A model generated the notes under the pieces. The model was given only the letters and a program-made list of their open reading frames with translations. It was not told where the DNA came from and did not search any database. The position numbers were made by a program, and so were the translations under genes. From assembly GCA_903820955.1 (NCBI GenBank), contig CAIJJH010000072.1, positions 1 through 13,582 of the forward strand: 13,582 bases of DNA, read 5' to 3'. This document shows positions 1 to 13,582 of the stretch, piece after piece; position 1 is the stretch's first letter, and each line of letters opens with the position of its first letter. The stretch comes from an uncultured Micrococcales bacterium. GTDB lineage: Bacteria > Actinomycetota > Actinomycetes > Actinomycetales > Microbacteriaceae.

Positions 1-386
1 AGGGTTCTAACCGCGTGACGGCCAGCAAGTTCGCCGTTGGCTACCTCGAGCCGTTTTGGGCGGAGTCCGGTCGCGATGATTAGTGTGCCGTAGGCGTGGG
101 TTTCGCCCTGTGAGTCGGTGACAGTTGAATGTTCGAGGTCAGCGCTTTCGACCTTCGTGCCGAGCAGCCAGTTGACATCGGCGGTTGAGTCTCGCTGCGG
201 GAACGCGACGGCTTCGTGGCTAACCTCGGCCGCGAGCACTTCTTTGCTTAGCGGTGGGCGGTTGTAAGGAGCGTGGCGCTCCTCGCCGATGACCGTGATC
301 GGCCCGGCGTAACCGCATCGACGAAGCGCCTCGGCAGCCCGCAGGCCGCCCATCGACGCGCCGACGATGATTACGGGTTTGGTCAT
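1..386 (-). CDS. NAD(P)H-dependent FAD ferredoxin reductase, P450/oxygenase type (partial, C-terminus off the window)
   Basis: The 128 visible residues are the N-terminal part of a two-dinucleotide-fold flavoprotein of the putidaredoxin-reductase/rhodocoxin-reductase type. These enzymes pass electrons from NAD(P)H through FAD to a small ferredoxin in the cytoplasm. Residues 5-15 (VIIVGASMGGL) form the FAD-binding GxSxGG Rossmann loop. The family segment APYNRPPLSKE lies near residues 42-52, and LIIATGLRPKR near 106-116 is the conserved ATG motif. The ATG at 384-386 shares one base with the stop of the ferredoxin gene (TAATG), which implies translational coupling. Together with that ferredoxin it most likely serves the P450 encoded at 5223-6461. 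The NAD-binding domain and the C-terminal domain lie outside the window. The family call is firm; the partner P450 is inferred from there being only one in the window. Confidence 0.93.
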   Translation of the reverse strand, partial: MTKPVIIVGASMGGLRAAEALRRCGYAGPITVIGEERHAPYNRPPLSKEVLAAEVSHEAVAFPQRDSTADVNWLLGTKVESADLEHSTVTDSQGETHAYGTLIIATGLRPKRLEVANGELAGRHAVRT

Positions 387-580
387 TACTTGACGAGCGA
401 AATTGCCTGCATTGGGCAAACGTCAATCGCTGCCTCAACGTTGGCTAGCTCCGAGTCGTCTGCCTCGGCGGTGTATTCGAGCTTGTCGTCTGCGTTCAGA
501 CGAAAAATGTCTGGCGCTTCAAACACGCACTGACCGTAGTGCTGGCACTTGGTCATGTCGACTTCGATCTTGATTGTCAT
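386..580 (-). CDS. [3Fe-4S]-type ferredoxin, P450 redox partner
   Basis: A 64-residue cytoplasmic one-electron carrier. Cysteines are at 12, 18 and 55: C12-x5-C18, then C55-P near the end (AIDVCPMQAI). The second position of the usual CxxCxxC cluster motif is a histidine/tyrosine pair (CQHYGQC), so only three cysteines are available. That pattern is typical of [3Fe-4S] ferredoxins that feed actinobacterial cytochromes P450. Acidic stretches (residues 30-48) suit docking to basic partners. A strong Shine-Dalgarno (GGAGGA) lies inside the end of the upstream hpaG-like gene; the ATG shares one base with that gene's stop (TAATG), and its own stop shares one base with the reductase ATG. The cluster type is inferred from the cysteine pattern. 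It is transcribed with the ring-cleavage genes rather than with the P450. Confidence 0.95.
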   Translation of the reverse strand: MTIKIEVDMTKCQHYGQCVFEAPDIFRLNADDKLEYTAEADDSELANVEAAIDVCPMQAISLVK

Positions 581-1455
581 TATTTTTCCTCCACGGTAGA
601 TGGGTAAAGGTCTTTTGACGGGGTGCGAATGCCACGAAACTCCCAGTCGCCACCCATAGCGGTTGAGATAACCTCTTCGCTTTCCGTCGGCTGAGCGCCA
701 ACGTCGGTGCGAATCGGGGTTGGGCCTTCGACGATGTGGTTGGTGAGGCGTCCGAGGCCTTCGACCTCAACCTCGACGATGTCGCCAGGCTGAACCGGGC
801 GGCTGAACGCTGGCGTGCCAGAGAACAGCATGTCGCCGGGCACAAGTGTGATGGTGCGAGCGATGTCGGCAACCAGGTAGTGCATGTCCCACTCCATGTT
901 GTCGGTGTTGTCTTCTTGTTTGACTTCGCCGTTCACGTAGGTGCGAATCATCTTGTTTCTGAAGTCCCAGTCGGTGACGAGCCCAGGGCCAACCGGCGCC
1001 AAGGTGTCTGAGCCCTTGACGCGAAGCATCGAGCCGGCGTCGGTGTCTCTGAAGTCATGTAAGCCGTAGTCGTTGCCAACCGTGTAACCGGCGATGTAGT
1101 CACCGGCTTCTGCAGGCGAAATGTTGCGGGCCGTCTTGCCGATGACGATGACGATTTCACCCTCGTAGTTCAGCCACTTGCAGCCGGCCGGGCGCACAAC
1201 CGCACCCTTGTGGGTGTTTAGCGCGGTGATCGGCTTGTGAAAGTAGGTTGGGGCAGCCGGGAGCTTGGTCATGAACTCCTGGGTGCGGCTGTCATAGTTC
1301 AGGTGCACGGCGATGATCTTGGTCGGCTCACTTGGCGCGAGGTGCACGGCGTCTTCAATCGCGGTGATGCGTCCGTCGGGGGCAACCAGGTTTTCACCCT
1401 GGCGCAAAACCTGCACAGGGTAGCCGTCAAGCAGAATTCTTCGATACTCAGTCAC
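580..1455 (-). CDS. hpaG: Fumarylacetoacetate hydrolase-family protein, HpaG-type 2-hydroxyhepta-2,4-diene-1,7-dioate isomerase / OPET decarboxylase
   Basis: A 291-residue FAH-fold enzyme. HpaG/HpcE enzymes decarboxylate 5-oxo-pent-3-ene-1,2,5-tricarboxylate and isomerise the product in the homoprotocatechuate meta-cleavage pathway. The metal ligands are visible: E98 and E100 in YEGEIVIVIG and D129 in GNDYGLHDF. ARNIS...DYIAGYTV, MLFSGTP and VEVEVEGLGRL also match the HpaG family. The start is GTG at 1453-1455, overlapping the end of the dioxygenase gene by 8 nt; an AAGGA lies about 14 nt upstream, so initiation may depend on coupling. The protein carries about 45 extra residues after the usual end of the domain (from roughly residue 243 on), with no recognisable motif. 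The subfamily is supported by the adjacent hpaD and hpaE; FAH-family function is otherwise hard to predict, so decarboxylase, isomerase or hydrolase activity remains open. Confidence 0.88.
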   Translation of the reverse strand: MTEYRRILLDGYPVQVLRQGENLVAPDGRITAIEDAVHLAPSEPTKIIAVHLNYDSRTQEFMTKLPAAPTYFHKPITALNTHKGAVVRPAGCKWLNYEGEIVIVIGKTARNISPAEAGDYIAGYTVGNDYGLHDFRDTDAGSMLRVKGSDTLAPVGPGLVTDWDFRNKMIRTYVNGEVKQEDNTDNMEWDMHYLVADIARTITLVPGDMLFSGTPAFSRPVQPGDIVEVEVEGLGRLTNHIVEGPTPIRTDVGAQPTESEEVISTAMGGDWEFRGIRTPSKDLYPSTVEEK

Positions 1456-2359
1456 GAGAGAGAGTCACGTCCTTAGGTTGTGGGAATCCACCTTCGGGCT
1501 TGTCGAACCAGATGTGAACCTGACCGGTGCCGATGGAGTTTTCGTATTCAGAGTACAAGCGACCAACCGAGGTGTTTGCCTCTTCACCCAGTGCGCCAGC
1601 CATTGCCAGGTAGTGGTAAAAACCGGCCTCCGGCTTGTATTTCTTGAAGTTGTCGAAGTCGTCGAGGACGGCCTTGTGGTCACCTTGAGCGAACCAAGCC
1701 ATCACCTTCTTGTCGTACTCGTATGCCTCCGGCGTGAAGATGTGCTTCGGGTCGCTGGCTTCGTGCTTGCGAAGGTCGCGCAGTTTGTGGAACGTGTGGC
1801 TGAGAGCTCCAGAGGCAAGCAGCAGAACCTTGCTGTCGCTGTCGCGAATTGCTTCGCCGAGCGCGCGTCCGGCGCGAATAAAGTCTTCCGGGGTGCCGGT
1901 CTGGCAAACCGACATCGAGATCCACTTCTTTTCGTCCAAGCCACGGCCCAGGTAGTGCCAGAGGTTTATGGTCGCGTAAAAAATCGGGAGGTGTGGGTCG
2001 GCGATCGGGGTGACCCAGGTGCCGTTCTTTTCGTCGTACTTGCTAAGGCTATTTGCCAGCTCGGGGTTGCCCTTCATCGCGTACGGAATTTGACTCATGC
2101 CGCGAGGGAGTTCTTCTGAGGTGAACAGGCCAGAGCGTTCGGCAGCCGAGGTGATCACGAACTCAACCGTTGTTGCCCAGTGCGAGTCGAGAACCACCAC
2201 GGTGTCGTAGTCGAGGGTTTCGAAGACGTCTTTGCGCAGTTGCTTGAGACCGGGCACGAGGCTCAGCTCTTTGCCGTTGTTGAGGTCTTTGCGAACCGCC
2301 TCGGGCAACATGATTGTTGGCACGTGGGCCAGGATTGCAGCGCCTACTACTTCACCCAT
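1448..2359 (-). CDS. hpaD: Class III extradiol ring-cleavage dioxygenase, 3,4-dihydroxyphenylacetate 2,3-dioxygenase (HpaD type)
   Basis: A 303-residue LigB-superfamily dioxygenase that opens a catechol ring next to the two hydroxyls using Fe(II) and O2. It follows the E. coli HpaD/HpcB sequence along its length: LAHVPTIMLPE at the N-terminus, DSHW near residue 58, GLFTSEELP and GNPELA around 90-115, LLASGALSHTFH in the middle and SIGTGQVHIWF near the end. Expected iron ligands are H12, H60 and a glutamate in YSEYENS. In the HpaD family the substrate is homoprotocatechuate and the product 5-carboxymethyl-2-hydroxymuconate semialdehyde, which is the substrate of the neighbouring aldehyde dehydrogenase. 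Only 3 nt separate it from the upstream stop, with AAGGAA about 6 nt before ATG. Other substituted catechols cannot be excluded from sequence alone. Confidence 0.93.
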   Translation of the reverse strand: MGEVVGAAILAHVPTIMLPEAVRKDLNNGKELSLVPGLKQLRKDVFETLDYDTVVVLDSHWATTVEFVITSAAERSGLFTSEELPRGMSQIPYAMKGNPELANSLSKYDEKNGTWVTPIADPHLPIFYATINLWHYLGRGLDEKKWISMSVCQTGTPEDFIRAGRALGEAIRDSDSKVLLLASGALSHTFHKLRDLRKHEASDPKHIFTPEAYEYDKKVMAWFAQGDHKAVLDDFDNFKKYKPEAGFYHYLAMAGALGEEANTSVGRLYSEYENSIGTGQVHIWFDKPEGGFPQPKDVTLSRD

Positions 2360-2362
2360 TTG

Positions 2363-3826
2363 TTATTCCTTCCAACCGGTTGGTGAAACTACTGTGTTCT
2401 TTACATCCGCGTAGAAATCGAAAGACCAGGTGCCACCCTCGCGGCCGATGCCAGATTTGCGCGAGCCACCGAATGGAGCCTTCAGGTCGCGAACGAAGAA
2501 GCAGTTGACCCAGATGGTGCCGGCGACAAGCTGCTTAGAAACACGGTCCGCGCGCTCGCGGTTGCCCGAGACCAGAATCGCGGCAAGCCCGAACTCGGTG
2601 CCGTTGGCCATGGCAACAGCTTCTTCGTCGGTTGAGAAAGTTTGCATGCAGAGCACTGGGCCGAACACCTCGGCGGTGAGGATTTCGCTGCCAGGCGCCG
2701 GGTTCTTGACCAGAGTTGGCTTGAAGTAGAGGCCGCCGAGCTCTGCGTTCGGCTCGCCACCCATCACGAATTCCTGGCCCTCGGCCTTGGCGCGATCCAC
2801 GAAGCCCTTGATTCGGTCGAAGTGCACCTGGTGAATCTGCGGGCCGATGTCTGTGTCTTCGTCGCGTGGGTCGCCCTGTTTGATCTGTAGCGCCTTTTCA
2901 CGGAACTTTTTGGCGAATGCGTCCGCGATGTTTTCGTGCACCAAAATGCGTGTGCCAGATAGGCAGACCTGACCGGCGTTGTCGTACTGCTCAACCGCAA
3001 GAGTCACTGCGAGGTCGAGGTCGGCGTCTTCTAGGACGATGCATGGAGATTTTCCGCCAAGCTCAAACGAGATTGGGGTGAGGTTGTCGGCAGCCGAGCG
3101 GGCAATCACCTTGGCCGTGGGCACCGAACCGGTGAACGAGATGCGGGCTAGGTCTGGGTTGGCAACTAGTGCCGCACCGACCTCGCGCCCGAAGCCCTGA
3201 ACCACGTTGAAAACGCCGTCAGGCAGGCCGGCCTGCTTGGTGAGGTCGGCAAAGTAGGAGGCCGAGAGCGGGGTCCACTCGGCAGGCTTGAGAACCACGG
3301 TGTCGCCGGCCGCAAGGGCTGGGCCAATCTTCCAGGTCGCGAGCATTAGGGGAGCGTTCCACGGGGTGATCAGTGCGGCAACGCCCGATGGGTCCCAAGA
3401 AATATTGTTCGAGTGCCCACGGGTTTCGAAGGCCTCGTGGTGCAGCTCGTTGATAGCCCAATCGGCAAAGAAGCGAATGTTCAGGGCGACGCGTGGCATG
3501 ACACCGCGGCGGTGTGAGCGCAGCAACGACCCGTTGTCCATGGTTTCGAGCATCGAAAGGGTTTCGATGTTGGCTTCGACCAGATCGGCGATGCGGTGCA
3601 GGATCTCGCCGCGACCCTTGGGGCCGAGCGCTGCCCAGGCCGGAAAAGCGGCCTTTGCGGCGGCAACGGCGGCATCGGCCTCCGCCTGAGAGCCGCGTGA
3701 AATCTCACCGAGGAACGTGCCGTCGATCGGCGAGATGTTGGTGAAGGTCTCTGCAGACGCGACACGCTCACCGTTGATCCAGTGACGGGTATCGACGTTT
3801 GCGCCAGCTACTGCGATGCTGCTCAT
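2363..3826 (-). CDS. hpaE: 5-carboxymethyl-2-hydroxymuconate-semialdehyde dehydrogenase (HpaE-type ALDH)
   Basis: A 487-residue NAD(P)-dependent aldehyde dehydrogenase. Numbered from the ATG at 3824-3826, the active-site residues are N157 (TPWN), E255 (FELGGKSP) and the nucleophile C288 (GQVCLSGTR). The C-terminal blocks WVNCFFVRDLKAPFGG and SGIGREGGTWSF and the block DNGSLLRSHRRGVMPR are characteristic of HpaE and hydroxymuconic-semialdehyde dehydrogenases, and less so of PuuC. It oxidises the ring-cleavage aldehyde made by HpaD. A TTG four codons upstream (3836-3838) could also initiate, but the ATG has AAGGG just before it and fits the usual HpaE N-terminus. It is first gene of the minus-strand operon hpaE-hpaD-hpaG-ferredoxin-reductase. 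A 22-bp operator-like inverted repeat lies 19 bp upstream of the start. It might also take part in oxidising an amine-derived aldehyde; that is only a possibility. Confidence 0.92.
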   Translation of the reverse strand: MSSIAVAGANVDTRHWINGERVASAETFTNISPIDGTFLGEISRGSQAEADAAVAAAKAAFPAWAALGPKGRGEILHRIADLVEANIETLSMLETMDNGSLLRSHRRGVMPRVALNIRFFADWAINELHHEAFETRGHSNNISWDPSGVAALITPWNAPLMLATWKIGPALAAGDTVVLKPAEWTPLSASYFADLTKQAGLPDGVFNVVQGFGREVGAALVANPDLARISFTGSVPTAKVIARSAADNLTPISFELGGKSPCIVLEDADLDLAVTLAVEQYDNAGQVCLSGTRILVHENIADAFAKKFREKALQIKQGDPRDEDTDIGPQIHQVHFDRIKGFVDRAKAEGQEFVMGGEPNAELGGLYFKPTLVKNPAPGSEILTAEVFGPVLCMQTFSTDEEAVAMANGTEFGLAAILVSGNRERADRVSKQLVAGTIWVNCFFVRDLKAPFGGSRKSGIGREGGTWSFDFYADVKNTVVSPTGWKE

Positions 3827-3845
3827 GAAGCCCTTCAAAAAACTT

Positions 3846-3867
3846 AATCGTTCGGGTGCTAATGATT
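3846..3867. promoter_or_regulatory. Operator-like 22-bp inverted repeat upstream of hpaE
   Basis: The half-site AATCGTTC (identical to the best copy upstream of the permease), a 6-nt spacer GGGTGC and TAATGATT, which matches GAACGATT at 6 of 8 positions. It ends 19 bp before the hpaE ATG, where a bound repressor would block the operon. It may also influence the divergent PuuD-like gene 65 bp away. The same pattern recurs in the other intergenic regions of the island. Confidence 0.7.
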
Positions 3868-3885
3868 TAGATTAGGGCATAATTG

Positions 3886-3914
3886 AGGCTAGTAACACCT
3901 AGTTTTCATAACAA
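3886..3914 (-). promoter_or_regulatory. Candidate promoter of the hpaE operon
   Basis: Read on the minus strand, TTGTTA (3909-3914) and TAGCCT (3886-3891) are separated by 17 nt. The second hexamer fits the actinobacterial TANNNT -10 pattern. Transcription would begin near 3879, so the operator-like repeat would lie just downstream of the start. On the plus strand, TTGAGG (3883-3888) and CATAAC (3907-3912), spaced 18 nt, are a weaker candidate for the divergent hydrolase gene and would overlap this one. Confidence 0.35.
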
Positions 3915-3932
3915 TTTGATTGGATTCTCGAA

Positions 3933-4634
3933 ATGACGAGACCCCGCATCGCAATTCTCGGCCGATTCGCAGACGGCACCACAGTCACGCGCGCTCGCGG
4001 GTTGGTTACCGCACGCGCTTTGGCCGATGCGGTTTGGGCGGCCGGTGGCGACCCGCTGACTTTCTTGCCGATCGAAGGCAGCGACTGGAGCGAGCGTATG
4101 GCCGGAATCGACGGAATCCTGATGCCCGGCGGCGGCGACCTCGACCCATCGCACTACGCGACCGAGGTAACCAGCGAAGAAATCTACGGCGTGGACGCGA
4201 TCCAAGACGCCGTCGACTTTTCCTTAGTGAAGTGGGCTATCGATAACGCTGTTCCGCTGCTCGCGATTTGCCGCGGTTGCCAGCTGGTGAACGTTGCCCT
4301 CGGCGGAACCCTGGTTCAGCACATGGAAGATGACCACAGATACAAGGTTCACCCGGTAACGGTTTCGGCGGCGTCCGAGTTGGGCCTTACCCAAGACATC
4401 GTTGAGTCTTCTTGCTACCACCACCAAGAGATCGACCAGCTCGGTCGCGGGCTTGAAGTTGTTGCTACCAGCGGTGACGGGGTTATTGAGGCGGTAAAGA
4501 TTCCGTCGGACGCCTGGGCGTTTGCAGTTCAGTGGCACCCAGAGGACACCTACGATTCAAACGCGCAGCAGCTCGCGATTTTCGAGCGATTTGTCGCGGA
4601 GGCGGCTAGCTTTTCTTCTCAACGCCAACGGTAA
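3933..4634 (+). CDS. Peptidase C26 / PuuD-like gamma-glutamyl hydrolase (class I glutamine amidotransferase fold)
   Basis: A 233-residue enzyme of the gamma-glutamyl-GABA hydrolase family, which removes a gamma-linked glutamate from an amine or amino-acid conjugate. The catalytic triad is visible: nucleophile C113 in AICRGCQ, H202 and E204 in AVQWHPE. The MPGGGDLDPSHY block (residues 64-75) and SSCYHHQEIDQLG (159-171) are PuuD-family signatures. The nucleophile position is close to that of E. coli PuuD. No synthetase domain is attached, so it acts alone. It diverges from the hpaE operon, and its last 29 nt overlap the end of the convergent MarR gene. No clear Shine-Dalgarno precedes the ATG. 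With the GS-like ligase at 7256-8602 it could complete a gamma-glutamylation/deglutamylation cycle. The true conjugate is unknown; GABA is only the reference substrate. Confidence 0.9.
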   Translation: MTRPRIAILGRFADGTTVTRARGLVTARALADAVWAAGGDPLTFLPIEGSDWSERMAGIDGILMPGGGDLDPSHYATEVTSEEIYGVDAIQDAVDFSLVKWAIDNAVPLLAICRGCQLVNVALGGTLVQHMEDDHRYKVHPVTVSAASELGLTQDIVESSCYHHQEIDQLGRGLEVVATSGDGVIEAVKIPSDAWAFAVQWHPEDTYDSNAQQLAIFERFVAEAASFSSQRQR

Positions 4635-5106
4635 TTGCGCGAAGTAGGTCGGCGAGGTCTTTTTGCTTGGCCAAAGGCACGACCCCGGCAACTTCTTTTT
4701 CGTTCGCGTTGAATTCTGGGAACAGGGTGTCCATCATTTTGCGACCCTTATTGGTCAAGGTAACCAAGACCAAACGGCCGTCGGTTTCGCTCTTTGCACG
4801 AGTGACCAGGCCGCGACCCTCGAGGGTTGAAAGCACCCCGGTTAGCGTGGCCTTCGAGAAGCCGCCTTCTTCAGCAATCTGACGAGTCTCGATCGGCTCC
4901 CAGATCCACGAGACCCAAAGAACCACAAAGGCGGTCCACGAAAGGTCGTGCTGAGCGAGAACTGTGCGCTCGAGGTGGTTGCGAATCGCGGTCGCCGCGC
5001 GGAACAGGTTCGACGTCACCGCCATGGCCTGGAAGTCCAGTGTCATGTGCGATAGTCGCTCGCTAACCTGACGCTCGGTCTCGGTAAGTGTGTGTGCTCC
5101 AGCCAT
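4606..5106 (-). CDS. MarR-family transcriptional regulator, probable repressor of this island
   Basis: A 166-residue dimeric winged-helix DNA-binding protein. The helix-turn-helix spans about residues 75-100 (IETRQIAEEGGFSKATLTGVL as the recognition region), followed by the wing GLVTRAKSETDGRLVLVTLT with the conserved DxR pattern. MarR proteins commonly repress aromatic-catabolism genes and are released by a pathway ligand; HpaR of homoprotocatechuate operons is one. The ATG at 5104-5106 is preceded by AGGGG at good spacing. It sits in the middle of the island and is the only transcription factor in the window, so it is the best candidate for binding the 22-bp repeats. One such repeat lies 38 bp before its own start, which suggests autoregulation. 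Its 3' end overlaps the convergent hydrolase gene by 29 bp. Repressor rather than activator is inferred from operator positions. Confidence 0.92.
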   Translation of the reverse strand: MAGAHTLTETERQVSERLSHMTLDFQAMAVTSNLFRAATAIRNHLERTVLAQHDLSWTAFVVLWVSWIWEPIETRQIAEEGGFSKATLTGVLSTLEGRGLVTRAKSETDGRLVLVTLTNKGRKMMDTLFPEFNANEKEVAGVVPLAKQKDLADLLRAITVGVEKKS

Positions 5107-5144
5107 CTCAGCCCCTTTGTTGCTAAATCGTAACCCCGATTCTC

Positions 5145-5166
5145 TTTCATTTAGTCCCGAACGACC
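5145..5166. promoter_or_regulatory. Weak operator-like repeat in the marR-P450 intergenic region
   Basis: TTTCATTT, spacer AGTCCC, GAACGACC. The right arm matches the consensus half-site at 6 of 8 positions and the left arm at only 4 of 8. It lies 38 bp upstream of the MarR gene, the expected place for autoregulation. On its own it would not stand out; it is listed because the stronger copy at 5188-5209 shares the intergenic region. Confidence 0.4.
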
Positions 5167-5187
5167 TTAAATTTCCACTAAGGTAAA

Positions 5188-5209
5188 AATGATTCGTATC
5201 CAAACAATC
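5188..5209. promoter_or_regulatory. Operator-like 22-bp inverted repeat upstream of the P450 gene
   Basis: AATGATTC, spacer GTATCC, AAACAATC. The block from TTC through the spacer and into the right arm closely follows the copy at 9543-9564. Arms match the half-site consensus at 6 of 8 and 5 of 8 positions. It abuts the Shine-Dalgarno AGGAG (5211-5215) and ends 13 bp before the P450 start codon, so a bound protein would lie at or just after the transcription start. Confidence 0.6.
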
Positions 5210-5222
5210 TAGGAGACTCGCA

Positions 5223-6461
5223 ATGAAGAGCATCAGCTTGGCAGATCTCGATCTATTCGCTAACGGCGCCCCGTGGGATGTTTTCAAACAACTGCGCGAT
5301 GAGTCCCCGATGCACTGGAACGAAGAGGAGGCGCCACAGAGCGGCTTCTACTCGGTAACCCGGTACCACGACATCGTCAAGGTGCTTCGCGACCCAGACA
5401 CCTTCACCTCCGAGCGATTCACCAACCTCGAAGAAGTGGACGCCGAGCAAGAAGAGGCCAGGCGCTCACTGCTTGAGACCGACGGCTCTCGACACCGCGC
5501 GCTGCGACGCATTTTGCAAGGCGAGTTCACTCCACAGGCGGTGGCAAAGTATGAGACCTTCCTTCGCGGCCTAACCGCAACCACTCTGGACAAGGCTTTT
5601 GCCAAGGGTTCGTTCGACTTCGTCGAGGACGTCGCCGCCGACTTTCCGATCAACGTCCTGGTTCGCTTGCTCGATGTTCCGGAGGCTGACGCCGGTCAGC
5701 TGATCGACTGGGGTAACCGGATGATTGGGTTCGATGACCCCGAGCACGCCGATGTTTTGATCAACAGCGCCGAGAGCGAGGAGTACCGCCTCGTGCCATT
5801 CAAGTCGCCGGCAGCGCTAGAGGTTTTTGCCTATGGCGACGCCCTGGCGAAAGAACGCAGGGGCAAAGACGGCACCGACCTGATTTCACGACTCGTCAAC
5901 ACGGCTCCGAGTGACGGAATCCCGCTAAGCGAGCGCGACTTCCACACCAACTTCTTGCTGTTGGTGGTTGCCGGTAATGAAACGACTCGTCACACCATCA
6001 GCCACACCATGCGCAACTTGATCAACAACCCCGATCAGCTCGCCTACCTGCAAGAGAACCCAGACAAGATCGAGTGGGCGGTCGAAGAGTTCCTTCGTTA
6101 CGCGAGCCCGGTCTACCACTTCAGACGCACCGCTACACGCGACGTCGAGTTTGGCGGCGTAAACATCAAGGCCGGCCAGAAGGTTGTCCCTTGGTTTGCC
6201 TCGGGCAACCGCGACGAAAAGATCTTCGAGAACCCAGACAAGATGGACGTCACCAGAAACCCGAACGAGCACATGACCTTTGGCCGTGGAGGGCCGCACA
6301 TGTGCCTCGGCAACGCGCTCGCTCGAATCGAGCTTCGCGTGATGTTTGAAGAACTAATTCGCCGCGTCGACAAGGTCGAGCAGGTTGGTGAAATCGACTA
6401 CCTGCGCTCGAACTTCGTTCACGGAATCAAGCGATTCCAGGTGAAGGTAACAACCCGCTAG
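5223..6461 (+). CDS. Cytochrome P450 monooxygenase
   Basis: A soluble 412-residue class I bacterial P450 that inserts one oxygen atom into its substrate using electrons from a ferredoxin. Visible motifs in order: I-helix oxygen-activation AGNETT at 250-255, K-helix ExxR as E289-F-L-R292, a meander with RDEKIFENPD (330-339), and the haem loop FGRGGPHMCLG with haem-ligand C361. The haem loop is one residue longer than the common FGxGxHxCxG and resembles loops of the CYP124/CYP125/CYP142 group; the protein cannot be placed in a CYP family by eye. The ATG has AGGAG 7 nt upstream and an operator-like repeat just before it. Its probable redox partners are the ferredoxin and reductase encoded at 1-580. 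Hydroxylation of an aromatic ring or side chain, or oxidation next to a nitrogen, would fit the setting. The stop overlaps the convergent GATase-like gene by 4 bp. Confidence 0.94.
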   Translation: MKSISLADLDLFANGAPWDVFKQLRDESPMHWNEEEAPQSGFYSVTRYHDIVKVLRDPDTFTSERFTNLEEVDAEQEEARRSLLETDGSRHRALRRILQGEFTPQAVAKYETFLRGLTATTLDKAFAKGSFDFVEDVAADFPINVLVRLLDVPEADAGQLIDWGNRMIGFDDPEHADVLINSAESEEYRLVPFKSPAALEVFAYGDALAKERRGKDGTDLISRLVNTAPSDGIPLSERDFHTNFLLLVVAGNETTRHTISHTMRNLINNPDQLAYLQENPDKIEWAVEEFLRYASPVYHFRRTATRDVEFGGVNIKAGQKVVPWFASGNRDEKIFENPDKMDVTRNPNEHMTFGRGGPHMCLGNALARIELRVMFEELIRRVDKVEQVGEIDYLRSNFVHGIKRFQVKVTTR

Positions 6462-7162
6462 AGCTTTGCGATCTTGTCGATGAACGTGTCGACCAGTGCG
6501 TAGGTGCGCTCGCGCGCAGCGTCTTCTTCGGCCACGGTTTGGGCATACATGATCTCTGGGTCTTGGCCGTCCTCGAGTACCTTCGCGTCGCCACCCCAAT
6601 CGAGCCAACCCTTTAGCCCGGCAGCGTTTAGTTCTGGGTGAAACTGCACGGCCAGGCTTTTGCCATAGATGAAGGCTTGCGAGGCAACCGGGTTGCGGGC
6701 GAGTTCGATCGCACCTGGTGGCAACTGCCAGCGGTCGTAGTGAAACTGAAACCAGGGGCCGTTGCTAACCAGGTCTGGGCGCTCCGACCAGATGTTGACC
6801 CAACCGATCTCGCTCTTTGGTGCGGGCGCAACCGAGCCGCCCAGAGCCCTGGCCATTAGCTGACCACCGAAGCAGATGCCGAAAACCGGCTTATTAGCCT
6901 CTAAGGCCGAGCGCAACCAGGCAATTTCTGGCGTCAACCAGTTTCCGATGCAGGCGTCGTCCCAGGCTCCCCACGGAGCGCCTAGCGGGATGATCACGTC
7001 GTAGTCGTTGATCTCCGGGAACTCGAACTTGACGTTCGGGTTGGCAAAGTTCTCTTTGGTAACCACGAGCACCTCTGTGGTCTCGAAGCCACGCTCGCGA
7101 AAGCGCTCGCCCACCGGCCCAGTGGGTGAGACGTGGTCATGCTGAATGAACAATGCCTTCAT
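6458..7162 (-). CDS. Type 1 glutamine amidotransferase-like protein (GMP-synthase GATase-domain family), putative gamma-glutamyl hydrolase
   Basis: A 234-residue stand-alone class I GATase-fold protein. The nucleophile elbow is GICFGGQ with C97, and AVQFHPEL supplies H174 and E176, so the hydrolytic triad looks intact. It belongs to the group usually annotated 'glutamine amidotransferase' or 'GMP synthase-like', but has no synthetase partner nearby other than the GS-like ligase on the opposite strand. Stand-alone members occur next to gamma-glutamyl ligases in amine pathways, for example with gamma-glutamylanilide synthase in aniline catabolism. The start ATG has AGGA 5 nt upstream. It is divergent from the GS-like gene across 93 bp that contain one operator-like repeat. 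It is only distantly similar to the PuuD-like enzyme at 3933-4634, so the two may act on different conjugates. Specificity is unknown. Confidence 0.88.
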   Translation of the reverse strand: MKALFIQHDHVSPTGPVGERFRERGFETTEVLVVTKENFANPNVKFEFPEINDYDVIIPLGAPWGAWDDACIGNWLTPEIAWLRSALEANKPVFGICFGGQLMARALGGSVAPAPKSEIGWVNIWSERPDLVSNGPWFQFHYDRWQLPPGAIELARNPVASQAFIYGKSLAVQFHPELNAAGLKGWLDWGGDAKVLEDGQDPEIMYAQTVAEEDAARERTYALVDTFIDKIAKL

Positions 7163-7199
7163 GCGTTTCCTAACTTTTCGATAACATGGCGCACTTGTA

Positions 7200-7228
7200 A
7201 CATTACCTAGGGTTATTATTCGTTTGAA
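7200..7228 (-). promoter_or_regulatory. Candidate promoter of the GATase-like gene
   Basis: On the minus strand, TTCAAA (7223-7228) and TAATGT (7200-7205) are separated by 17 nt. The -35 hexamer lies inside the operator-like repeat 7218-7239, so repressor binding would block it. For the divergent GS-like gene, TATTAT (7214-7219) is a reasonable -10 without a good -35. Confidence 0.4.
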
Positions 7229-7239
7229 CCCTAACGATA
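7218..7239. promoter_or_regulatory. Operator-like 22-bp inverted repeat between the GATase-like and GS-like genes
   Basis: ATTCGTTT, spacer GAACCC, TAACGATA; both arms match the half-site consensus at 6 of 8 positions. It ends 16 bp before the GS-like start codon, just upstream of the strong Shine-Dalgarno AAAGGAG, and lies 55 bp from the divergent GATase-like start. One bound dimer could control both directions. Confidence 0.65.
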
Positions 7240-7255
7240 TAACAAAGGAGTTGCA

Positions 7256-8602
7256 ATGGGCACTGACCTCGTTGCTCTACGCGAAAAACTCAAGGCCGAC
7301 GGAATCGATGTTCTGCGCCTGATCTACTCTGATGTGCTCGGAATCGCCCGCTCGAAAGACCTTCTAGTCAGCATGCTAGACAAGGCCGCCCACAACGGGC
7401 CTGCTTTCTGCCAGGGTGTTTGGGTAACCACGACTCGCGGCGGCGTCATGGATGCAAACAACATCGCCACCGACGGACTTCAAGACCTAGTTTCAAAACT
7501 TGACCCAGAAACAATCAAACACTTGCCTTGGGAGTCGGGGGTGGCCTATGTAATCGCCGACGCCTTCAACCCAGACCAGAGCGACAACCTGATGTCGCCT
7601 CGCACGGTGCTCAAGAAGGTAATCGCCGAATACAACAAACTAGGTCTATCGCCAGTGGTTGGCCCCGAGCTTGAGTTCTACATCGCCGATCGCACCGAAG
7701 CTGGCGGCTACAAGCGCGCTCACGAAAAGACCGGCTTTGTTTACACCACCGGAGCAGCCGTCGACCCGCACGGCAACTTCCTCCACCTAATGCGCATGCT
7801 CGACCAGATGGACATCGGTGTCTTCGCCGGCAATGCCGAGTTCAGCCCTTCGCAATACGAGATCAACCTCTACCACTCGGAGGCCTTGGACGCCGCCGAT
7901 CGCACGTTCCTGTTCAAGACCGCGATCAAGGATGTAATCACCCGCCGCGGCCAGCACGCAACCTTCTTGGGTAAGCCCTGGAGCGACGAGGGCGGTTCGG
8001 GCTTCCACCTGCACTTCTCGGTCACCGACCTTGCCGGCAAAAACCAAATGTTTGATGGCGAAGAGCTGAGTGAAATCGCTCGCAAGATGATTGCCGGCCT
8101 AACTCATAACGCGATGGCGCTAACCGCCTTCACCAACCCAACCGTCAACGCCTTTAAGCGCCTTGGCCCAGACACCCTCGCTCCTTACCGTGCCAACTGG
8201 GGTTACGACAACCGTTCAACTATGGTTCGAATCCCACCAGAGCGCGGGCAGGGCACCCGCCTAGAGGTTCGCGTTGGCGATGGCGCGGCAAACCCTTACC
8301 TGGTCATTGCCGGCATCCTGGCAGCGGCGCTTGACGGCATCAAGCGAAACCTGGACTGCCCGCCAAACGCCGAAGGCATGGCCTACGACAACGAAGTCGC
8401 TGCGGTGTTGCCGATGACGTTCACGGCTGCCCTAGACGCGCTTGAAGCGAACGACGAACTGCGTCACCAGATGAGTCAAGAACTGATCAACGTGTTCTTG
8501 GTTATGAAGCGCGACGAAATCGCTCGCTACGAAGCGGCCGTGCCAAATCACACTCGCGATGTCACGCAGTGGGAAATCGACGAATACTTCGAGGCTTACT
8601 AA
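7256..8602 (+). CDS. Glutamine synthetase-family gamma-glutamyl-amine ligase (PuuA / glutamylanilide-synthase-like)
   Basis: A 448-residue class I glutamine-synthetase-fold enzyme that uses ATP to join the gamma-carboxyl of glutamate to an amine. An N-terminal beta-grasp domain is followed by the catalytic domain: PELEF (E138, E140), AEFSPSQYE (E202), GSGFHLHFS (251/253 histidines) and RLEVRVGDGAANPYL. It is shorter than housekeeping GS-I (about 470), and the usual adenylylation-loop tyrosine context near the C-terminus is not recognisable. Together with its catabolic setting this argues for PuuA, IpuC or gamma-glutamylanilide-synthase-like function rather than ammonia assimilation. The ATG follows AAAGGAG. 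GS-like genes also accompany P450-ferredoxin-reductase sets in mycobacterial morpholine/piperidine degradation, a relevant precedent. The amine substrate is not determined by sequence. Confidence 0.9.
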   Translation: MGTDLVALREKLKADGIDVLRLIYSDVLGIARSKDLLVSMLDKAAHNGPAFCQGVWVTTTRGGVMDANNIATDGLQDLVSKLDPETIKHLPWESGVAYVIADAFNPDQSDNLMSPRTVLKKVIAEYNKLGLSPVVGPELEFYIADRTEAGGYKRAHEKTGFVYTTGAAVDPHGNFLHLMRMLDQMDIGVFAGNAEFSPSQYEINLYHSEALDAADRTFLFKTAIKDVITRRGQHATFLGKPWSDEGGSGFHLHFSVTDLAGKNQMFDGEELSEIARKMIAGLTHNAMALTAFTNPTVNAFKRLGPDTLAPYRANWGYDNRSTMVRIPPERGQGTRLEVRVGDGAANPYLVIAGILAAALDGIKRNLDCPPNAEGMAYDNEVAAVLPMTFTAALDALEANDELRHQMSQELINVFLVMKRDEIARYEAAVPNHTRDVTQWEIDEYFEAY

Positions 8603-9411
8603 ACCGAAGGGTTTGAGCGGTCGGCAACTAGGTTGCCACCGTTGAAGGTCACGCCAAGTTCACGGTAGTAACCGGCTAGCACATTCTTGACGGGCAGAAT
8701 CGAGTTCAGCTCGTCCCACTGTGAATCGCCGAGAGTAAGTTCGGCGTCTCCTACCCAGGTTGCCCCGAGGTCAGCGTCGACGCCGCCGAGAGACACAAGT
8801 TGGTCTAGCGAGTTGCCGGCACCAGGCACAATCGAAGGAACCCAACGGCTGTGCAGCATCTTGTGGCCGTTGACGAAACCGTTGCTCTCCGAAGGCTCGC
8901 GAAGAGTCACAATTGCCGAGGCGAGTCTGTGGTCGTATGCCGAAAGCGATGCGCCAAGCTTTGCGCCGTTTTCAAGCTTCGGAGTCGCTTTGCCGTGGTT
9001 GAAGACACGAGTGACGTGCATCGAGCCCAGCTTCTTCGGGTAGCCCTGAAACCAGCCGCGAGCGATCGCGAAGTCCTTGGTAACCCAAATCGCGATACAG
9101 CGGCTGTAGGTAACGCCCTCGTACATGCAGCGAACAACCACGAAGGTCTCGAGGTACTGCGAGCGCACAGGGTCGAGCAGTTCGGCTCCGCCTTCGGAGC
9201 AGGATTGCCAGTCGGCCCAGATGATCGCTACCGCGCCTGGCTCTTCGTCGGCTAGTTCTAGCTCGGCTGGCAAAATCGCCCGAACGTTTGCCGGGTCGGT
9301 TAGGTACTCGACCGTCAGCAGGGTGCCCGAGTAATACCAAGGCATGTTTGGCACGATCGCGCTTTTACCGCTCGGGGTCTTAGGGGCTAGGAATCCGTTG
9401 AGTTCGCTCAT
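8599..9411 (-). CDS. Acetoacetate decarboxylase-family enzyme
   Basis: A 270-residue member of the acetoacetate decarboxylase-like superfamily. The Schiff-base lysine pair is seen in QGYPKKLG (K126, K127), matching the YPKKLG of clostridial acetoacetate decarboxylase. The N-terminal MPWYYSGTLLTVEYLTDP and the C-terminal VLAGYYRELGVTF are also family features. The superfamily includes decarboxylases, but also enzymes doing aldol condensation, dehydration or retro-aldol chemistry through the same lysine. The start is set at the ATG 9409-9411; an ATG at 9430-9432 and a GTG at 9460-9462 are in frame. The first choice puts the operator-like repeat 15 bp upstream, as at the other island genes, although no Shine-Dalgarno is evident there (the ATG at 9432 has GGAAG close by). 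The gene overlaps the GS-like gene's end by 4 bp. Its role in this pathway is unknown. Confidence 0.87.
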   Translation of the reverse strand: MSELNGFLAPKTPSGKSAIVPNMPWYYSGTLLTVEYLTDPANVRAILPAELELADEEPGAVAIIWADWQSCSEGGAELLDPVRSQYLETFVVVRCMYEGVTYSRCIAIWVTKDFAIARGWFQGYPKKLGSMHVTRVFNHGKATPKLENGAKLGASLSAYDHRLASAIVTLREPSESNGFVNGHKMLHSRWVPSIVPGAGNSLDQLVSLGGVDADLGATWVGDAELTLGDSQWDELNSILPVKNVLAGYYRELGVTFNGGNLVADRSNPSV

Positions 9412-9426
9412 TGAATTAGGGTAACG

Positions 9427-9448
9427 AATCATTCGCTTCCGAACAAAT
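9427..9448. promoter_or_regulatory. Operator-like 22-bp inverted repeat upstream of the decarboxylase-family gene
   Basis: AATCATTC, spacer GCTTCC, GAACAAAT; arms match the consensus half-sites at 7 of 8 and 6 of 8. It lies 15 bp from the preferred start codon at 9411 and just downstream of the best promoter candidate on that strand. Confidence 0.68.
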
Positions 9449-9450
9449 AG

Positions 9451-9483
9451 GCTTCGAATCACTTTATAACGATTCGGAGAAGC
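9451..9483. repeat. Imperfect inverted repeat in the decarboxylase-permease intergenic region
   Basis: GCTTCGAATC is mirrored by GATTC, a 3-nt interruption, then GAAGC, around a 10-nt centre containing TTTATAAC. The spacing does not match the 22-bp repeats on either side. It surrounds the candidate minus-strand -10, so it could be another protein-binding site or a small hairpin. Confidence 0.35.
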
Positions 9484-9490
9484 ATTTCAA
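9463..9490 (-). promoter_or_regulatory. Candidate promoter of the decarboxylase-family gene
   Basis: Minus-strand TTGAAA (9485-9490) and TATAAA (9463-9468), 16 nt apart, each one mismatch from the sigma-70 consensus. Transcription would begin near 9456, directly before the operator-like repeat. An alternative is TTGTTC (9441-9446) with TACCCT (9417-9422), spaced 18 nt, which would give a leaderless message starting at the ATG. Confidence 0.4.
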
Positions 9491-9542
9491 AAACCCCTGT
9501 ATGAACTTGACCGCGCTCGCCAATAACGCCACGCTTAGTAAG

Positions 9543-9564
9543 AATCGTTCATATCCGAACGATT
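9543..9564. promoter_or_regulatory. Perfect 22-bp operator-like inverted repeat upstream of the permease
   Basis: AATCGTTC, spacer ATATCC, GAACGATT: the two 8-bp arms are exact reverse complements. It is the best copy in the window and served as reference for the others. It ends 26 bp before the permease ATG at 9591. Confidence 0.78.
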
Positions 9565-9590
9565 TCACACTCGATGAGGAGATATCCCTT

Positions 9591-11105
9591 ATGTCAAATA
9601 GCTCAACAGACACCGGCCTTCGCAAGGGGCGCCTAGGTGTCGTAGGCATTGTGTTTTTCGTGGTTGCAGCCGCTGCGCCACTTCTCGGTATGACCGGTGC
9701 CGTTCCAGTAGCAATGTTGCTCGGAAACCAGGCCGGCACCCCCGGCACCTACCTAGCTGTCGGTTTGGTCCTACTCGTGTTCTCGGTCGGCTACGCAGCC
9801 ATGAGCTCGAAGGTCACCAACACGGGAGCGTTCTTTGCCTACGTGGGTAAAGGCCTCGGCAAGCATGCCGGCGTCGCCTCAGCGTTCGCGTCTCTCGTTG
9901 GTTACATAACCATTCAGCTTGCCATCTATGGATTCATCGGCGGAGTACTCTCCGGACAAATGAACGCTAGCCTCGGAATAAATCTTCCGTGGTATGCCTG
10001 GGCCATAATCGCTTGGGTTCTAGTTACCGCTTTATCTCTTCTAAGCGTCGACGTTGGCGCTAAGGTCCTCGGTGTTCTGATGATTGCCGAACTTTTGACC
10101 TTGGTCATAACTTCGAGCGCCGTGCTAATGAACCACGGTGCCAACATGAACCTGGCCAACTCCTTTAGCCCGACGGCGATCTTTGCTGGAGGCTTCGGTG
10201 GTGGAGCAGGTATCGCCATCGCTTTCGCCTTTGCCTCGTTCATCGGCTTCGAAGCAACTGCCATCTACGGCGAAGAGTCGAAAGACCCGAAGCGCGTTGT
10301 TCCAAGGGCCACCTATTGGGCAGTCAGCATCATCACAGTGCTCTTCGCATTCACCGCGTTTGCGATGGCAACCGCTATGGGCGGAAACAACGATGGAGTA
10401 GCGGGCTATGTTGTAAAAGCCAGTACCGTTGGCACGACCGTTCTAGGAAACCCAGCAGGGGTAATCTTCGGTATCGCCGATGACAATCTAGGTGGAACCT
10501 GGATGTCCACAATCATGGGCTGGTTGGTGATCTCTAGCTGCTTCGCCGGAATCCTGGCATTCCAGAACGCAATCTCGCGCTACTTCTTCGCACTCGGTCG
10601 CGGTGGCGTTCTTCCTAAGTCGCTTTCGAAGACCAACAAGGCAGGTGCTCCGGTCAATGGTGTCATTCTGACTTCGATTTTTGCCATAGTCGTAATCGTT
10701 ATTTTTGCGGTTGCCAAGCTAGACGGTATCGCCAACCTGTTCACTTGGATGTCGGCCGTGACCGCTGTAGCGATCATGTTCGTCGAAATCCTCGTGAGCG
10801 TTGCGGTCGTTGTCTACCTAGGCAAAGACAAGGCTGTCAGCATCTGGAAGTCGACGATTGCACCAGTCGTGGCCGCAGTTGCACTTGCCGTCGGCACCTA
10901 CATGCTCATGAGCCGATTCAACCTACTGGGAAGTTTGGCTCCGGCAAATGTCGACCCAACCACGCCAGAGGGCGCTTGGCAGCTAACTGGTTTCGGTTGG
11001 TTCTTAGTGCTTCTGCCTTTCATCGCGGCAGCAGTGGGTCTGGTCGTCTCGTTGGTGAACAACAAGAACGAGAAGTCAGCACTTTTGGAAGATATTCTTT
11101 CCTAA
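9591..11105 (+). CDS. APC-family amino acid/amine permease
   Basis: A 504-residue polytopic membrane transporter. It begins with a short polar segment and then GRLGVVGIVFFVVAAAAPLL, the typical first transmembrane helix of the APC superfamily, followed by about a dozen hydrophobic segments. FASFIGFEATAIYGEESKDPKRVVPRA near residues 215-245 is the conserved APC block with the helix-ending acidic residues. A start at 9501 is possible in frame, but it would place the perfect operator repeat inside the gene; the ATG at 9591 has GAGGAG about 9 nt upstream and is preferred. Its position in the same regulon suggests import of the amine or amino-acid-like compound that the island consumes, probably by proton symport. 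A terminator follows about 15 nt after the stop. The substrate cannot be read from sequence. Confidence 0.92.
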   Translation: MSNSSTDTGLRKGRLGVVGIVFFVVAAAAPLLGMTGAVPVAMLLGNQAGTPGTYLAVGLVLLVFSVGYAAMSSKVTNTGAFFAYVGKGLGKHAGVASAFASLVGYITIQLAIYGFIGGVLSGQMNASLGINLPWYAWAIIAWVLVTALSLLSVDVGAKVLGVLMIAELLTLVITSSAVLMNHGANMNLANSFSPTAIFAGGFGGGAGIAIAFAFASFIGFEATAIYGEESKDPKRVVPRATYWAVSIITVLFAFTAFAMATAMGGNNDGVAGYVVKASTVGTTVLGNPAGVIFGIADDNLGGTWMSTIMGWLVISSCFAGILAFQNAISRYFFALGRGGVLPKSLSKTNKAGAPVNGVILTSIFAIVVIVIFAVAKLDGIANLFTWMSAVTAVAIMFVEILVSVAVVVYLGKDKAVSIWKSTIAPVVAAVALAVGTYMLMSRFNLLGSLAPANVDPTTPEGAWQLTGFGWFLVLLPFIAAAVGLVVSLVNNKNEKSALLEDILS

Positions 11106-11169: not shown

Positions 11170-12450
11170 ATGATGTTCCGAAAGCTCGCAGTGTTAGCAA
11201 TCAGCGCAGTCGCGTTGATCACTTTCGCGCAGCCAGTCGGAGCGAAAACGAGTTGCAATTTCACGCCTTTTACAAGCGCCGGCAAACTTGGCAAGTTCTA
11301 TGGGCGGGTGCTAGATCTCGACACGGGTAGGCAACTGGTGGGTATTCGTGCGACCGAGCAGACGCCGTCCGCGTCAGTTTTGAAGGTTTTGACGGGCATC
11401 TCGGCGCTGATGCAACTGCCACCGAAGTTCACCGTTCAAACCAAGGTTTATTCGGTAGCTGGTGCACCCGACACCGTCGTCTTGCAAGGTGCCGGCGACC
11501 CTACCCTTTCGCGCCTTCTGCCACCGCACTACACGACCTATTCGAAACCTGCTCGGTTACCCAGGCTGGCAGCGGCGGCGCTTCGAGCTTTGCCTTCGGG
11601 CACTGTCATCAAACACATCATCGTGGACGATTCCTACTTTCAGGGGGTGGCCTACAACCCGTTCTGGAAGGCGAGCGATCGCACCAACGGTTATGTGTCA
11701 CCAATCGTCGGTTTGGCTGTAGATGGGGCTCGGGTGAACCCAGATCTGACCGATAAGCATTACAGCGGCGTGCGGGTTACCGACCCGGTAGCCCAGGCGG
11801 CTCAGGTATTCAAGGTCGCTCTCGGCTCGCAGGCAACCACCGCTTCGATCGAAGCAATGCCAAAAGCGCCACTTGAGTTGACTCAGATTGCCGCGGTGAC
11901 CTCGTCGACGGTTGAGACCTGGGTAGATCACGCTATGAAGTACAGCGACAACACCGAGGTCGAATACATTGCCCGTCAGGTTTCAAAGTGGCAAGACCTC
12001 GGCACGAATTACAAGTCGATCGAACCGATGGTGAAGGTGACCCTTGCTCAGCTGGGTGTCAGTAGCAAAGGGTTGGTCATGAAGGACGCCGCCGGTCTGG
12101 CGCAGGCCGACCGGGTTACCCCACAGGTGATTTCTGATGCCCTTGCTGCGATCGATCGTTATTCGGATTCGGTCGGCGACTTTTCTAGTTACCTGGCCAA
12201 CAGCACGAGCGCGGGAACCCTGAGCACGCGGTTCAAGGGTGCGAACAAGTTGCCCGCAGGAGTGGTTCAGGCCAAGACCGGCTACATTCCGGGGCTTTAT
12301 TCGCTGGCTGGTTACGTCACGGCTTCGGACGGCCACCGGCTGGTGTTCGCCTTCTTCGCCAGAGGCGGGGGAGTCGGCGGCGGCACTCGAACCAAGTTGG
12401 ACAGCCTGGTCGTGAAGGCCTATGCCTGCGGGGCGCGACTCACCAACTAA
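11170..12450 (+). CDS. dacB: D-alanyl-D-alanine carboxypeptidase/endopeptidase, PBP4 type (peptidase S13)
   Basis: A 426-residue exported penicillin-binding protein that trims or cleaves peptide cross-links in peptidoglycan. A signal peptide is clear: MMFRK, hydrophobic LAVLAISAVALITFA, and probable cleavage after PVGA (residue 25). The three serine-DD-peptidase motifs are present and in order: S69-V-L-K72, S259-D-N261 and K369-T-G371. The large insert between the first two motifs is typical of PBP4/DacB. It is somewhat shorter than E. coli PBP4 (477). Two adjacent ATGs (11170, 11173) could start it; no good Shine-Dalgarno is seen. It is separated from the permease by a terminator and is probably ordinary cell-wall housekeeping, unrelated to the island. 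Confidence 0.92.
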   Translation: MMFRKLAVLAISAVALITFAQPVGAKTSCNFTPFTSAGKLGKFYGRVLDLDTGRQLVGIRATEQTPSASVLKVLTGISALMQLPPKFTVQTKVYSVAGAPDTVVLQGAGDPTLSRLLPPHYTTYSKPARLPRLAAAALRALPSGTVIKHIIVDDSYFQGVAYNPFWKASDRTNGYVSPIVGLAVDGARVNPDLTDKHYSGVRVTDPVAQAAQVFKVALGSQATTASIEAMPKAPLELTQIAAVTSSTVETWVDHAMKYSDNTEVEYIARQVSKWQDLGTNYKSIEPMVKVTLAQLGVSSKGLVMKDAAGLAQADRVTPQVISDALAAIDRYSDSVGDFSSYLANSTSAGTLSTRFKGANKLPAGVVQAKTGYIPGLYSLAGYVTASDGHRLVFAFFARGGGVGGGTRTKLDSLVVKAYACGARLTN

Positions 12451-12470
12451 TCGTTTGGCTACAAACGGAT
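12449..12470. promoter_or_regulatory. Weak operator-like inverted repeat upstream of aspA
   Basis: AATCGTTT, spacer GGCTAC, AAACGGAT; arms match the island consensus at 7 of 8 and 5 of 8. The inner part CGTTTG...CAAACG is a perfect 6-bp inverted repeat. It overlaps the dacB stop codon and lies 19 bp before the first aspA ATG, the same geometry as the island copies, but its spacer lacks the terminal CC. TTGGCT (12455-12460) and TAAGAC (12477-12482), 16 nt apart, could be the promoter. Confidence 0.35.
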
Positions 12471-12489
12471 TTCGTGTAAGACTGAAGGC

Positions 12490-13582
<1,093 letters not shown>

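Follow-up and report, generated by a model that had tools for sequence, protein, structure and literature searches.

A conserved dyad at the promoters of a Microbacteriaceae catabolic gene cluster, a probable operator of the local MarR-family regulator

We analyzed a 13,582-nucleotide stretch of DNA, hereafter the window, that lies on contig 72 of the 1.27 Mb draft genome of an uncultured Microbacteriaceae bacterium. The window contains a catabolic gene cluster and a gene for a MarR-family regulator, and a short inverted repeat recurs upstream of the cluster genes. The repeats very probably serve a single transcription factor as operators, and this factor is most likely the cluster-encoded MarR protein acting as a repressor. 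The original prediction of one operator, one regulon and a local MarR regulator came through the computational tests described here. The motif is not as frequent in random or coding DNA as at the cluster promoters.

The probable operator and its sites in the window

The repeated element forms a dyad around a 4-nt center, AAATCGTTCG-TATC-CGAACGATTT. It had been described as a repeat with 8-bp arms and a 6-nt spacer. The inverted repeat is real, but its center is 4 nt long and, across relatives, the dyad gains one inward pair (G...C). The five sites and one weak copy reported originally agree with the DNA in coordinates and letters, and their coordinates place the five sites 13-26 bp from start codons. 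All five were recovered by an independent matrix, but a sixth strong site before aspA (12448..12471) had been missed. The copy at 9543, taken for a perfect palindrome, has perfect 8-bp arms but pairs at only 9 of 11 positions overall. The sites are listed below with their scores from the marR-P450 matrix (matrix 1) and the kin-free 66-site matrix (matrix 2).

3845..3868, minus strand: site before the operon of aldehyde dehydrogenase (ALDH), dioxygenase, FAH, ferredoxin and reductase, in a region shared with the C26 hydrolase; 26.9 and 32.3
5144..5167, plus strand: weak second copy on the marR side, a possible autoregulatory site; 7.0 and 14.8
5187..5210, plus strand: site before the P450 gene, in the divergent marR-P450 region; 35.4 and 31.6
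7217..7240, plus strand: site before the glutamine synthetase (GS)-like gene, in the divergent region between it and the glutamine amidotransferase (GAT) gene; 16.3 and 24.2
9426..9449, plus strand: site before the acetoacetate decarboxylase (ADC)-family gene, dyad orientation opposite to the gene; 18.2 and 23.7
9542..9565, plus strand: site before the APC permease gene, perfect 8-bp arms; 22.4 and 31.6
12448..12471, minus strand: site before aspA, missed by the original prediction; 16.6 and 23.8, and 14.7 bits in the whole-genome scan

The gap between site and start codon is 13 bp for P450, 16 for GS, 15 for ADC and 26 for APC, and 19 for ALDH if the ATG at 3826 is used. The first bases of the aspA site are the dacB stop codon, and 18 bp separate its end from aspA.

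Matrix 1 was built from 53 unique marR-P450 sites of relatives, with the window and three near kin excluded; 54 unique training sites had been kept, from which one misplaced sequence was removed. Because this matrix was trained on marR-P450 regions alone, the sites at other promoters were found by a matrix that had never seen them. After the six strong window sites, the next scores were 7.2 and 7.0, and 1 Mb of first-order random sequence yielded 5 matches at 14 or above. Matrix 2 was derived from all promoter classes and detects 7 window sites at 14 bits or above, where 4 Mb of second-order random sequence would predict 0.054. The weak copy is at chance level with matrix 1 (best chance position 7.2) and clearly exceeds the next position (8.8) with matrix 2. 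Second sites on the marR side also reach at least 14 in some relatives.

Relative to the plain consensus AATCGTTCN6GAACGATT (16 fixed bases), the copies have 0 (9543), 2 (3846), 3 (9427), 4 (7218), 5 (5188) and 6 (weak 5145) mismatches. Three matches with at most 3 mismatches occur in the window versus 0.07 expected, and none of 200 shuffles reaches three. Genome-wide, the same threshold gives 9 sites versus 6 for a reversed control, and the genome's 0- and 2-mismatch sites both fall in the window. Matrix and model searches were therefore used, as the plain consensus is weak at the genome scale. The best site by the relatives' matrix, 5188, pairs at just 4 of 8 arm positions.

Conservation of the sites in relatives

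Relatives were gathered with the MarR protein, which matches at E 1e-10 in 51 of 198 genomes, its own included; 80 of 95 loci were kept. The nearest records by MarR protein are Microbacteriaceae draft genomes, some labelled Rhodoluna, and carriers of the cluster include Rhodoluna, Aurantimicrobium, Salinibacterium, Microcella and related actinobacteria. The dyad is thus shared by many actinobacteria of freshwater and marine origin. Among 78 distinct intergenic regions between marR and P450, which vary in length and sequence, 74 have a best match to ATTGTTCGTATCCGAACAAT that agrees in 14 or more of 20 letters. In the 74 rows used for training, positions 5 and 6 (T) and 13 (C) are invariant, and position 8 (G) varies once. 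The site center lies 24-62 bp before the P450 start, except in L075 (90), L081 (69) and L114 (115).

Scanning the 80 loci at 14 or above gave 314 matches, 308 of which fall between -40 and +300 bp relative to the start of a cluster gene; of the other six, five lie elsewhere and one inside a gene as placed by homology. The upstream region carries a site at ALDH in 71/75 loci, APC in 48/49, ADC in 49/61, GS in 48/69 and aspA in 10/12. The P450 count (77/77) is circular because P450 sites trained the matrix, and the counts are not independent within the pairs ADC/APC, GS/GAT, ALDH/C26 and marR/P450, which share intergenic regions. No sites were found at the internal operon genes HPCD (0/69), FAH (0/66) and reductase (FNR, 0/59) or at dacB (0/11). 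In 78 of 80 loci, the 300 bp upstream of marR contain a site at 14 or above, which is mostly the one shared with the divergent P450 gene. The consensus letters vary between promoter classes.

In other families of the order, where the MarR protein is 48-54% identical and the cluster is rearranged (L120, L121, L122 and L124), the dyad is found at scores of 18-22. Four 44-50% identical MarR homologs without the cluster (L123, L125, L126 and L127) have no site at 11 or above in the 3.5-17 kb fetched. Across genera, the same promoters carry the site, and it also persists in other families where the cluster is shuffled.

The two half-sites also covary, at columns 5/20 and 6/19. Across the dyad as a whole, both sides change in 52 cells, a number that none of 500 shuffles reaches, and the covariation score exceeds all shuffles; the test is weakened by the relatedness of the sequences.

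In 12 of the 80 loci, the cluster is adjoined by aspA, which is not an obvious aromatic-pathway gene. One draft genome (G057, L063/L131) carries marR, C26 and aspA, and P450, GAT, GS, ADC and APC are absent between marR and aspA, with the rest of the 72% complete draft not searched for these genes. This marR-aspA stretch contains no site at 11 or above. The single match elsewhere in G057 precedes an SDR gene.

Sites across genomes and co-occurrence with marR

Genome-wide searches used a sequence-only model (R1) trained on 73 of 95 listed sites, including near kin of the window. Because 22 sites, mostly low-scoring or strand-ambiguous, were dropped by eye, the model is not an unbiased sample. 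In the window's own genome, where 150 of 332 candidates were scored, R1 matched 8 distinct places, 6 of which are the window sites, in agreement with the proposed regulon. Of the other two, one precedes an SDR gene (contig 166), and one lies between the convergent parB and ddl genes.

A genus search with stricter filters (118 candidates per genome) covered 67 genomes. At least two sites occur in 28 of 29 genomes with a MarR ortholog versus 3 of 38 without one (Fisher p 2e-14, without correction for relatedness). The table of site numbers and MarR presence was compiled by hand; the partial hits in G031, G043 and G060 were counted as present, and G036 and G049, with 45% identical MarR homologs, as lacking an ortholog. 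At the order level, 3 of 25 genomes (G122, G135 and G138) have model matches.

Unlinked candidate members of the regulon

The predicted regulon membership holds for the cluster promoters but is incomplete, given that aspA, an unlinked SDR gene, a succinate-semialdehyde dehydrogenase gene and, in relatives, cydA also carry sites. The off-cluster matches that were fetched are a hand-chosen subset of the matches listed. Among those fetched, sites precede an SDR gene in G000, G029, G004, G021, G057, G066, G065 and G051, a succinate-semialdehyde dehydrogenase-type gene in G021, G034, G015, G031, G066, G065 and G043, and cydA in G039, G008, G021, G031, G060, G066 and G059. An example dehydrogenase neighbor scores 541.0 (cut-off 646.35) and an example cydA neighbor 359 as cytochrome bd subunit I (cut-off 968); cydA of G039 and G008 was recognized by eye.

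Succinate semialdehyde is the end product of homoprotocatechuate meta-cleavage, and its dehydrogenase therefore fits as a member; in the window's own genome, only a degenerate candidate site (14.1) stands directly ahead of this gene. The cydA sites, before a cytochrome bd oxidase gene in seven relatives (L144, L146, L149, L151, L166, L167 and L178), suggest that respiration may be co-regulated with an oxygen-demanding pathway. Since cydA was not found in the window's own genome, in a search without a positive control, cydA is claimed for relatives only.

A good site also lies between convergent parB and ddl genes, both named by eye, in G000, the window's own genome (contig 154; L143, 3643-3666), and in the three near kin G033, G039 and G008 (L145, L147 and L148). 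This match was set aside as a regulon member, because between convergent genes a hairpin-capable sequence is as likely to be a terminator or another element. In G135, from another family, a match (L162, 3708-3731) lies about 50 bp before a gene whose product is 35% identical to the window MarR protein and is perhaps an autoregulated distant relative. In G087, a site scoring 14.2 (L133, 847-870, equivalent to L057, 2292-2315) is found about 130 bp upstream of the portion of an ALDH gene that was matched. The gene product, 37% identical to the window ALDH, is possibly a succinate-semialdehyde dehydrogenase.

The MarR protein and the position of its putative operators

The regulator scores 47.1 bits with Pfam MarR (PF01047; cut-off 24.6). 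Its best NCBIfam family is HpaR (TIGR02337), at 59.0, below the equivalog cut-off of 121.2. An AlphaFold (AF2) monomer prediction gives a MarR fold (pLDDT 91). The predicted model resembles the MftR-operator structure (TMq 0.84-0.85), Xanthomonas campestris HpaR 22oz (TMq 0.85) and the Acinetobacter baumannii HpaR-DNA complex (TMq 0.71). The segment SKATLTGV in the predicted DNA-reading helix is near-constant among orthologs. Cysteine is absent from 26 of 27 aligned MarR sequences, including that of the window, and homolog L114 has one. An OhrR-type redox regulator was considered and rejected, as the window protein has no cysteine and hence lacks the conserved reactive one. No other regulator was recognized among the window proteins searched against families; the flanks of the relatives' loci were not searched for further regulator genes.

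In 47 of 72 P450, 51 of 60 ALDH and 28 of 37 GS promoters, the site is preceded, at a gap of 0-7 nt, by a TAnnnT hexamer, compared with 3.5, 4.25 and 4.75 in the respective shifted controls. In the window, these hexamers are TAAGGT at P450 (gap of 2 nt), TAATCT at ALDH (0 nt) and TAGGGT at GS (3 nt). At these three promoters, in the window and in most relatives, the site directly follows a -10-like hexamer and would cover the expected transcription start, and it is thus in a repressor's position.

Alternative explanations

The same MarR protein and sites could serve activation, or repression at some promoters and activation at others. Such a role has a precedent in Yersinia HpaR, which, according to an excerpt of PMC7180172, activates T6SS4 from a far-upstream site, and the ADC and APC promoters, without an abutting hexamer, would accommodate it. 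It is nevertheless unlikely, given the repressing position of the site after the hexamer at the P450, ALDH and GS promoters and the location of all six strong window sites within 26 bp of a start codon. Alternatively, the dyad could be the operator of an unlinked transcription factor, with the MarR gene as a passenger, which would explain the three genomes that carry at least two sites without a MarR match. We regard this explanation as quite unlikely. MarR is the sole regulator recognized among the window proteins searched, and the site upstream of marR is retained in 78 of 80 loci. Moreover, the dyad is retained in more distant loci that have both an ortholog and the cluster, the four homologs of 44-50% identity that lack the cluster show no site at 11 or above in the stretches fetched, and G036 and G049, genus genomes with just a MarR homolog, have no matches.

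The palindromic sequence near the start codon, with its covarying paired columns, would also suit an RNA leader hairpin that controls translation or termination. This role is very improbable, because the asymmetric center can point either way with respect to the gene (it is reversed at ADC and aspA) and because the letters of site 5188 are conserved even though only half of its arm positions pair. In favor of a dispersed repeat or chance similarity, the 3-mismatch consensus barely exceeds its reversed control genome-wide (9 versus 6). Such an origin is scarcely credible in view of the recovery of the sites by an independent matrix, the promoter placement of 308 of 314 matches and the performance of the kin-free matrix against its null.

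Several observations weigh against the favored explanation, a local MarR repressor. TAnnnT abuts the site in 0 of 40 ADC and 1 of 41 APC promoters. Two of the five covariation measures do not exceed shuffles: pairs with a double change are as high in 495 of 500 shuffles, and further pair types in 135 of 500. The co-occurrence of marR and sites is also expected from the shared cluster, and the Fisher p value ignores relatedness. G015, G040 and G044 carry at least two sites without a MarR match; all three hold cluster pieces, and the G040 contig breaks off on the marR side shortly after the P450 sites. Among solved proteins, MgrA is the best sequence match of the regulator, and HpaR (7el2) ranks sixth. 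Repression makes no sense at the site between parB and ddl. Finally, some off-cluster matches in relatives have no recognized or fitting neighbor: those in G010 and G030 have no recognized one, that in G014 has an ABC-transporter-like gene (named by eye), that in G135 has the MarR-like gene described above, that in G059 is near a gene just 31% like SDR, and that in G122 is followed by an ALDH 38% identical to the window ALDH.

The gene cluster

The window proteins were typed by Pfam and NCBIfam searches against curated cut-offs.

3..386, minus strand: ferredoxin reductase, cut by the window edge (Pfam Pyr_redox_2)
386..580, minus strand: small ferredoxin, probably the P450 redox partner (named by eye from sequence, no family search)
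580..1455, minus strand: FAH-family isomerase/decarboxylase, HpaG-like (Pfam FAA_hydrolase; HpaG-C-term 205.7, cut-off 276.4)
1448..2359, minus strand: LigB-type extradiol dioxygenase, HpaD-like (Pfam LigB; HpaD_Fe 127.3, cut-off 315.95)
2363..3826, minus strand: HpaE-like ALDH (NCBIfam HpaE 510.9, cut-off 638.35)
3933..4634, plus strand: peptidase C26, gamma-glutamyl hydrolase family (Pfam Peptidase_C26)
4606..5106, minus strand: MarR-family regulator, 166 aa, no cysteine (Pfam MarR)
5223..6461, plus strand: cytochrome P450 (Pfam p450)
6458..7162, minus strand: class I GAT-like protein (Pfam GATase)
7256..8602, plus strand: GS-like protein (Pfam Gln-synt_C)
8599..9411, minus strand: ADC-superfamily protein, MppR-like (Pfam ADC; MppR 177.7, cut-off 380)
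9591..11105, plus strand: APC-superfamily permease (NCBIfam amino-acid/amine permease matches, all under cut-off)
12490..13581, plus strand: aspartate ammonia-lyase AspA, cut by the window edge (PRK12273 609.9, cut-off 510)

The genes for ALDH, dioxygenase, FAH, ferredoxin and reductase form one minus-strand operon, and a gene for a PBP4-type carboxypeptidase (dacB) stands between the APC permease gene and aspA. The HpaE-, HpaD- and HpaG-like neighbors of MarR are all under their equivalog cut-offs. The GS-like protein matches the NCBIfam families GS III and gamma-glutamylputrescine synthetase, both under cut-off, and the nearest solved sequences of the P450 are the CYP125 ancestor, CYP268A2, CYP124 and CYP125. 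The cluster probably breaks down an aromatic compound. The ADC-family protein is a candidate for the aldolase step, which is a guess made because no HpaH- or HpaI-type protein was recognized among the window proteins searched.

Proposed mechanism and comparison with known systems

Binding by MarR, repression, an inducing ligand and the substrate are all inferred here from sequence. In the proposed mechanism, a MarR dimer would recognize the dyad TTnG-N4-CnAA plus flanking half-site bases and, bound at the P450, ALDH and GS promoters, would exclude RNA polymerase. As the protein is cysteine-free, its signal is probably a small ligand, which may be an aromatic (amine) substrate or intermediate that releases the dimer. 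Release would switch on together uptake (APC), glutamylation (GS-like protein), oxidation (P450, ferredoxin and reductase), ring cleavage (dioxygenase, ALDH, FAH and the ADC-family protein) and aspA. This regulation would extend to the unlinked SDR and succinate-semialdehyde dehydrogenase genes and, in relatives, to cydA.

More tentatively, we consider it possible, albeit short of probable, that the regulon runs an undescribed aromatic-amine pathway of small-genome actinobacteria. This pathway would comprise gamma-glutamylation, P450 hydroxylation, homoprotocatechuate-like meta-cleavage and an ADC-superfamily aldolase and would end at succinate semialdehyde, with one MarR repressor recruiting the unlinked succinate-semialdehyde dehydrogenase, SDR and, in some species, cytochrome bd oxidase.

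The analysis assigns to an uncharacterized catabolic cluster a candidate regulator and a regulon, together with a defined operator. The sites serve as a search handle that adds aspA, SDR, succinate-semialdehyde dehydrogenase and cydA, and the added genes would constrain the pathway, whose end product would be oxidized to succinate. The purified MarR protein would offer a direct route to the inducing compound.

No report of this regulon or cluster was found in the open-access literature among the matches listed. The operator is real, conserved and present at several promoters; with high probability, it marks the regulon of the local MarR protein, which, as far as those matches go, is an undescribed member of a well-known kind. 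The amine-degrading P450 clusters of Gulosibacter were considered as a possible relative and set aside; MarR is not a term in the main text of PMC9477822. The auxin catabolism repressors IacR and IadR (MarR_73) are similar in being MarR repressors released by an aromatic substrate, according to the excerpted part of PMC9613470; they differ in genes and hosts, and the comparison excludes operator letters.

HpaR of Escherichia coli W and Yersinia is a further parallel. In the excerpt of PMC7180172, Yersinia HpaR represses hpa-meta from a TTAA-N4-TTAA dyad, said to be similar in E. coli W. Both systems combine a MarR regulator and a 4-bp dyad center with genes of homoprotocatechuate-type meta-cleavage, which in the window are putative. 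However, the window operator has TTCG/CGAA arms rather than the TTAA/TTAA arms given in that excerpt, and a TTAA-N4-TTAA operator is not what the window carries. The window MarR protein is also under half the HpaR cut-off, its cluster includes P450 and gamma-glutamylation-type genes, and six promoters in the window carry sites. Because the protein is below the HpaR cut-off, with similar geometry and role but different operator letters, it may work like HpaR and is not filed as HpaR.

The gamma-glutamylation routes, namely the aniline dioxygenase system and NpaA1 for 1-naphthylamine, share with the window the combination of GS-like and GAT-like proteins with an oxygenase followed by ring cleavage, as outlined in the excerpt of PMC11335346. 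There, the oxygenase of the aniline system is a Rieske dioxygenase, whereas the window encodes a P450 with ferredoxin and reductase, followed by an HpaD/E/G-like lower route.

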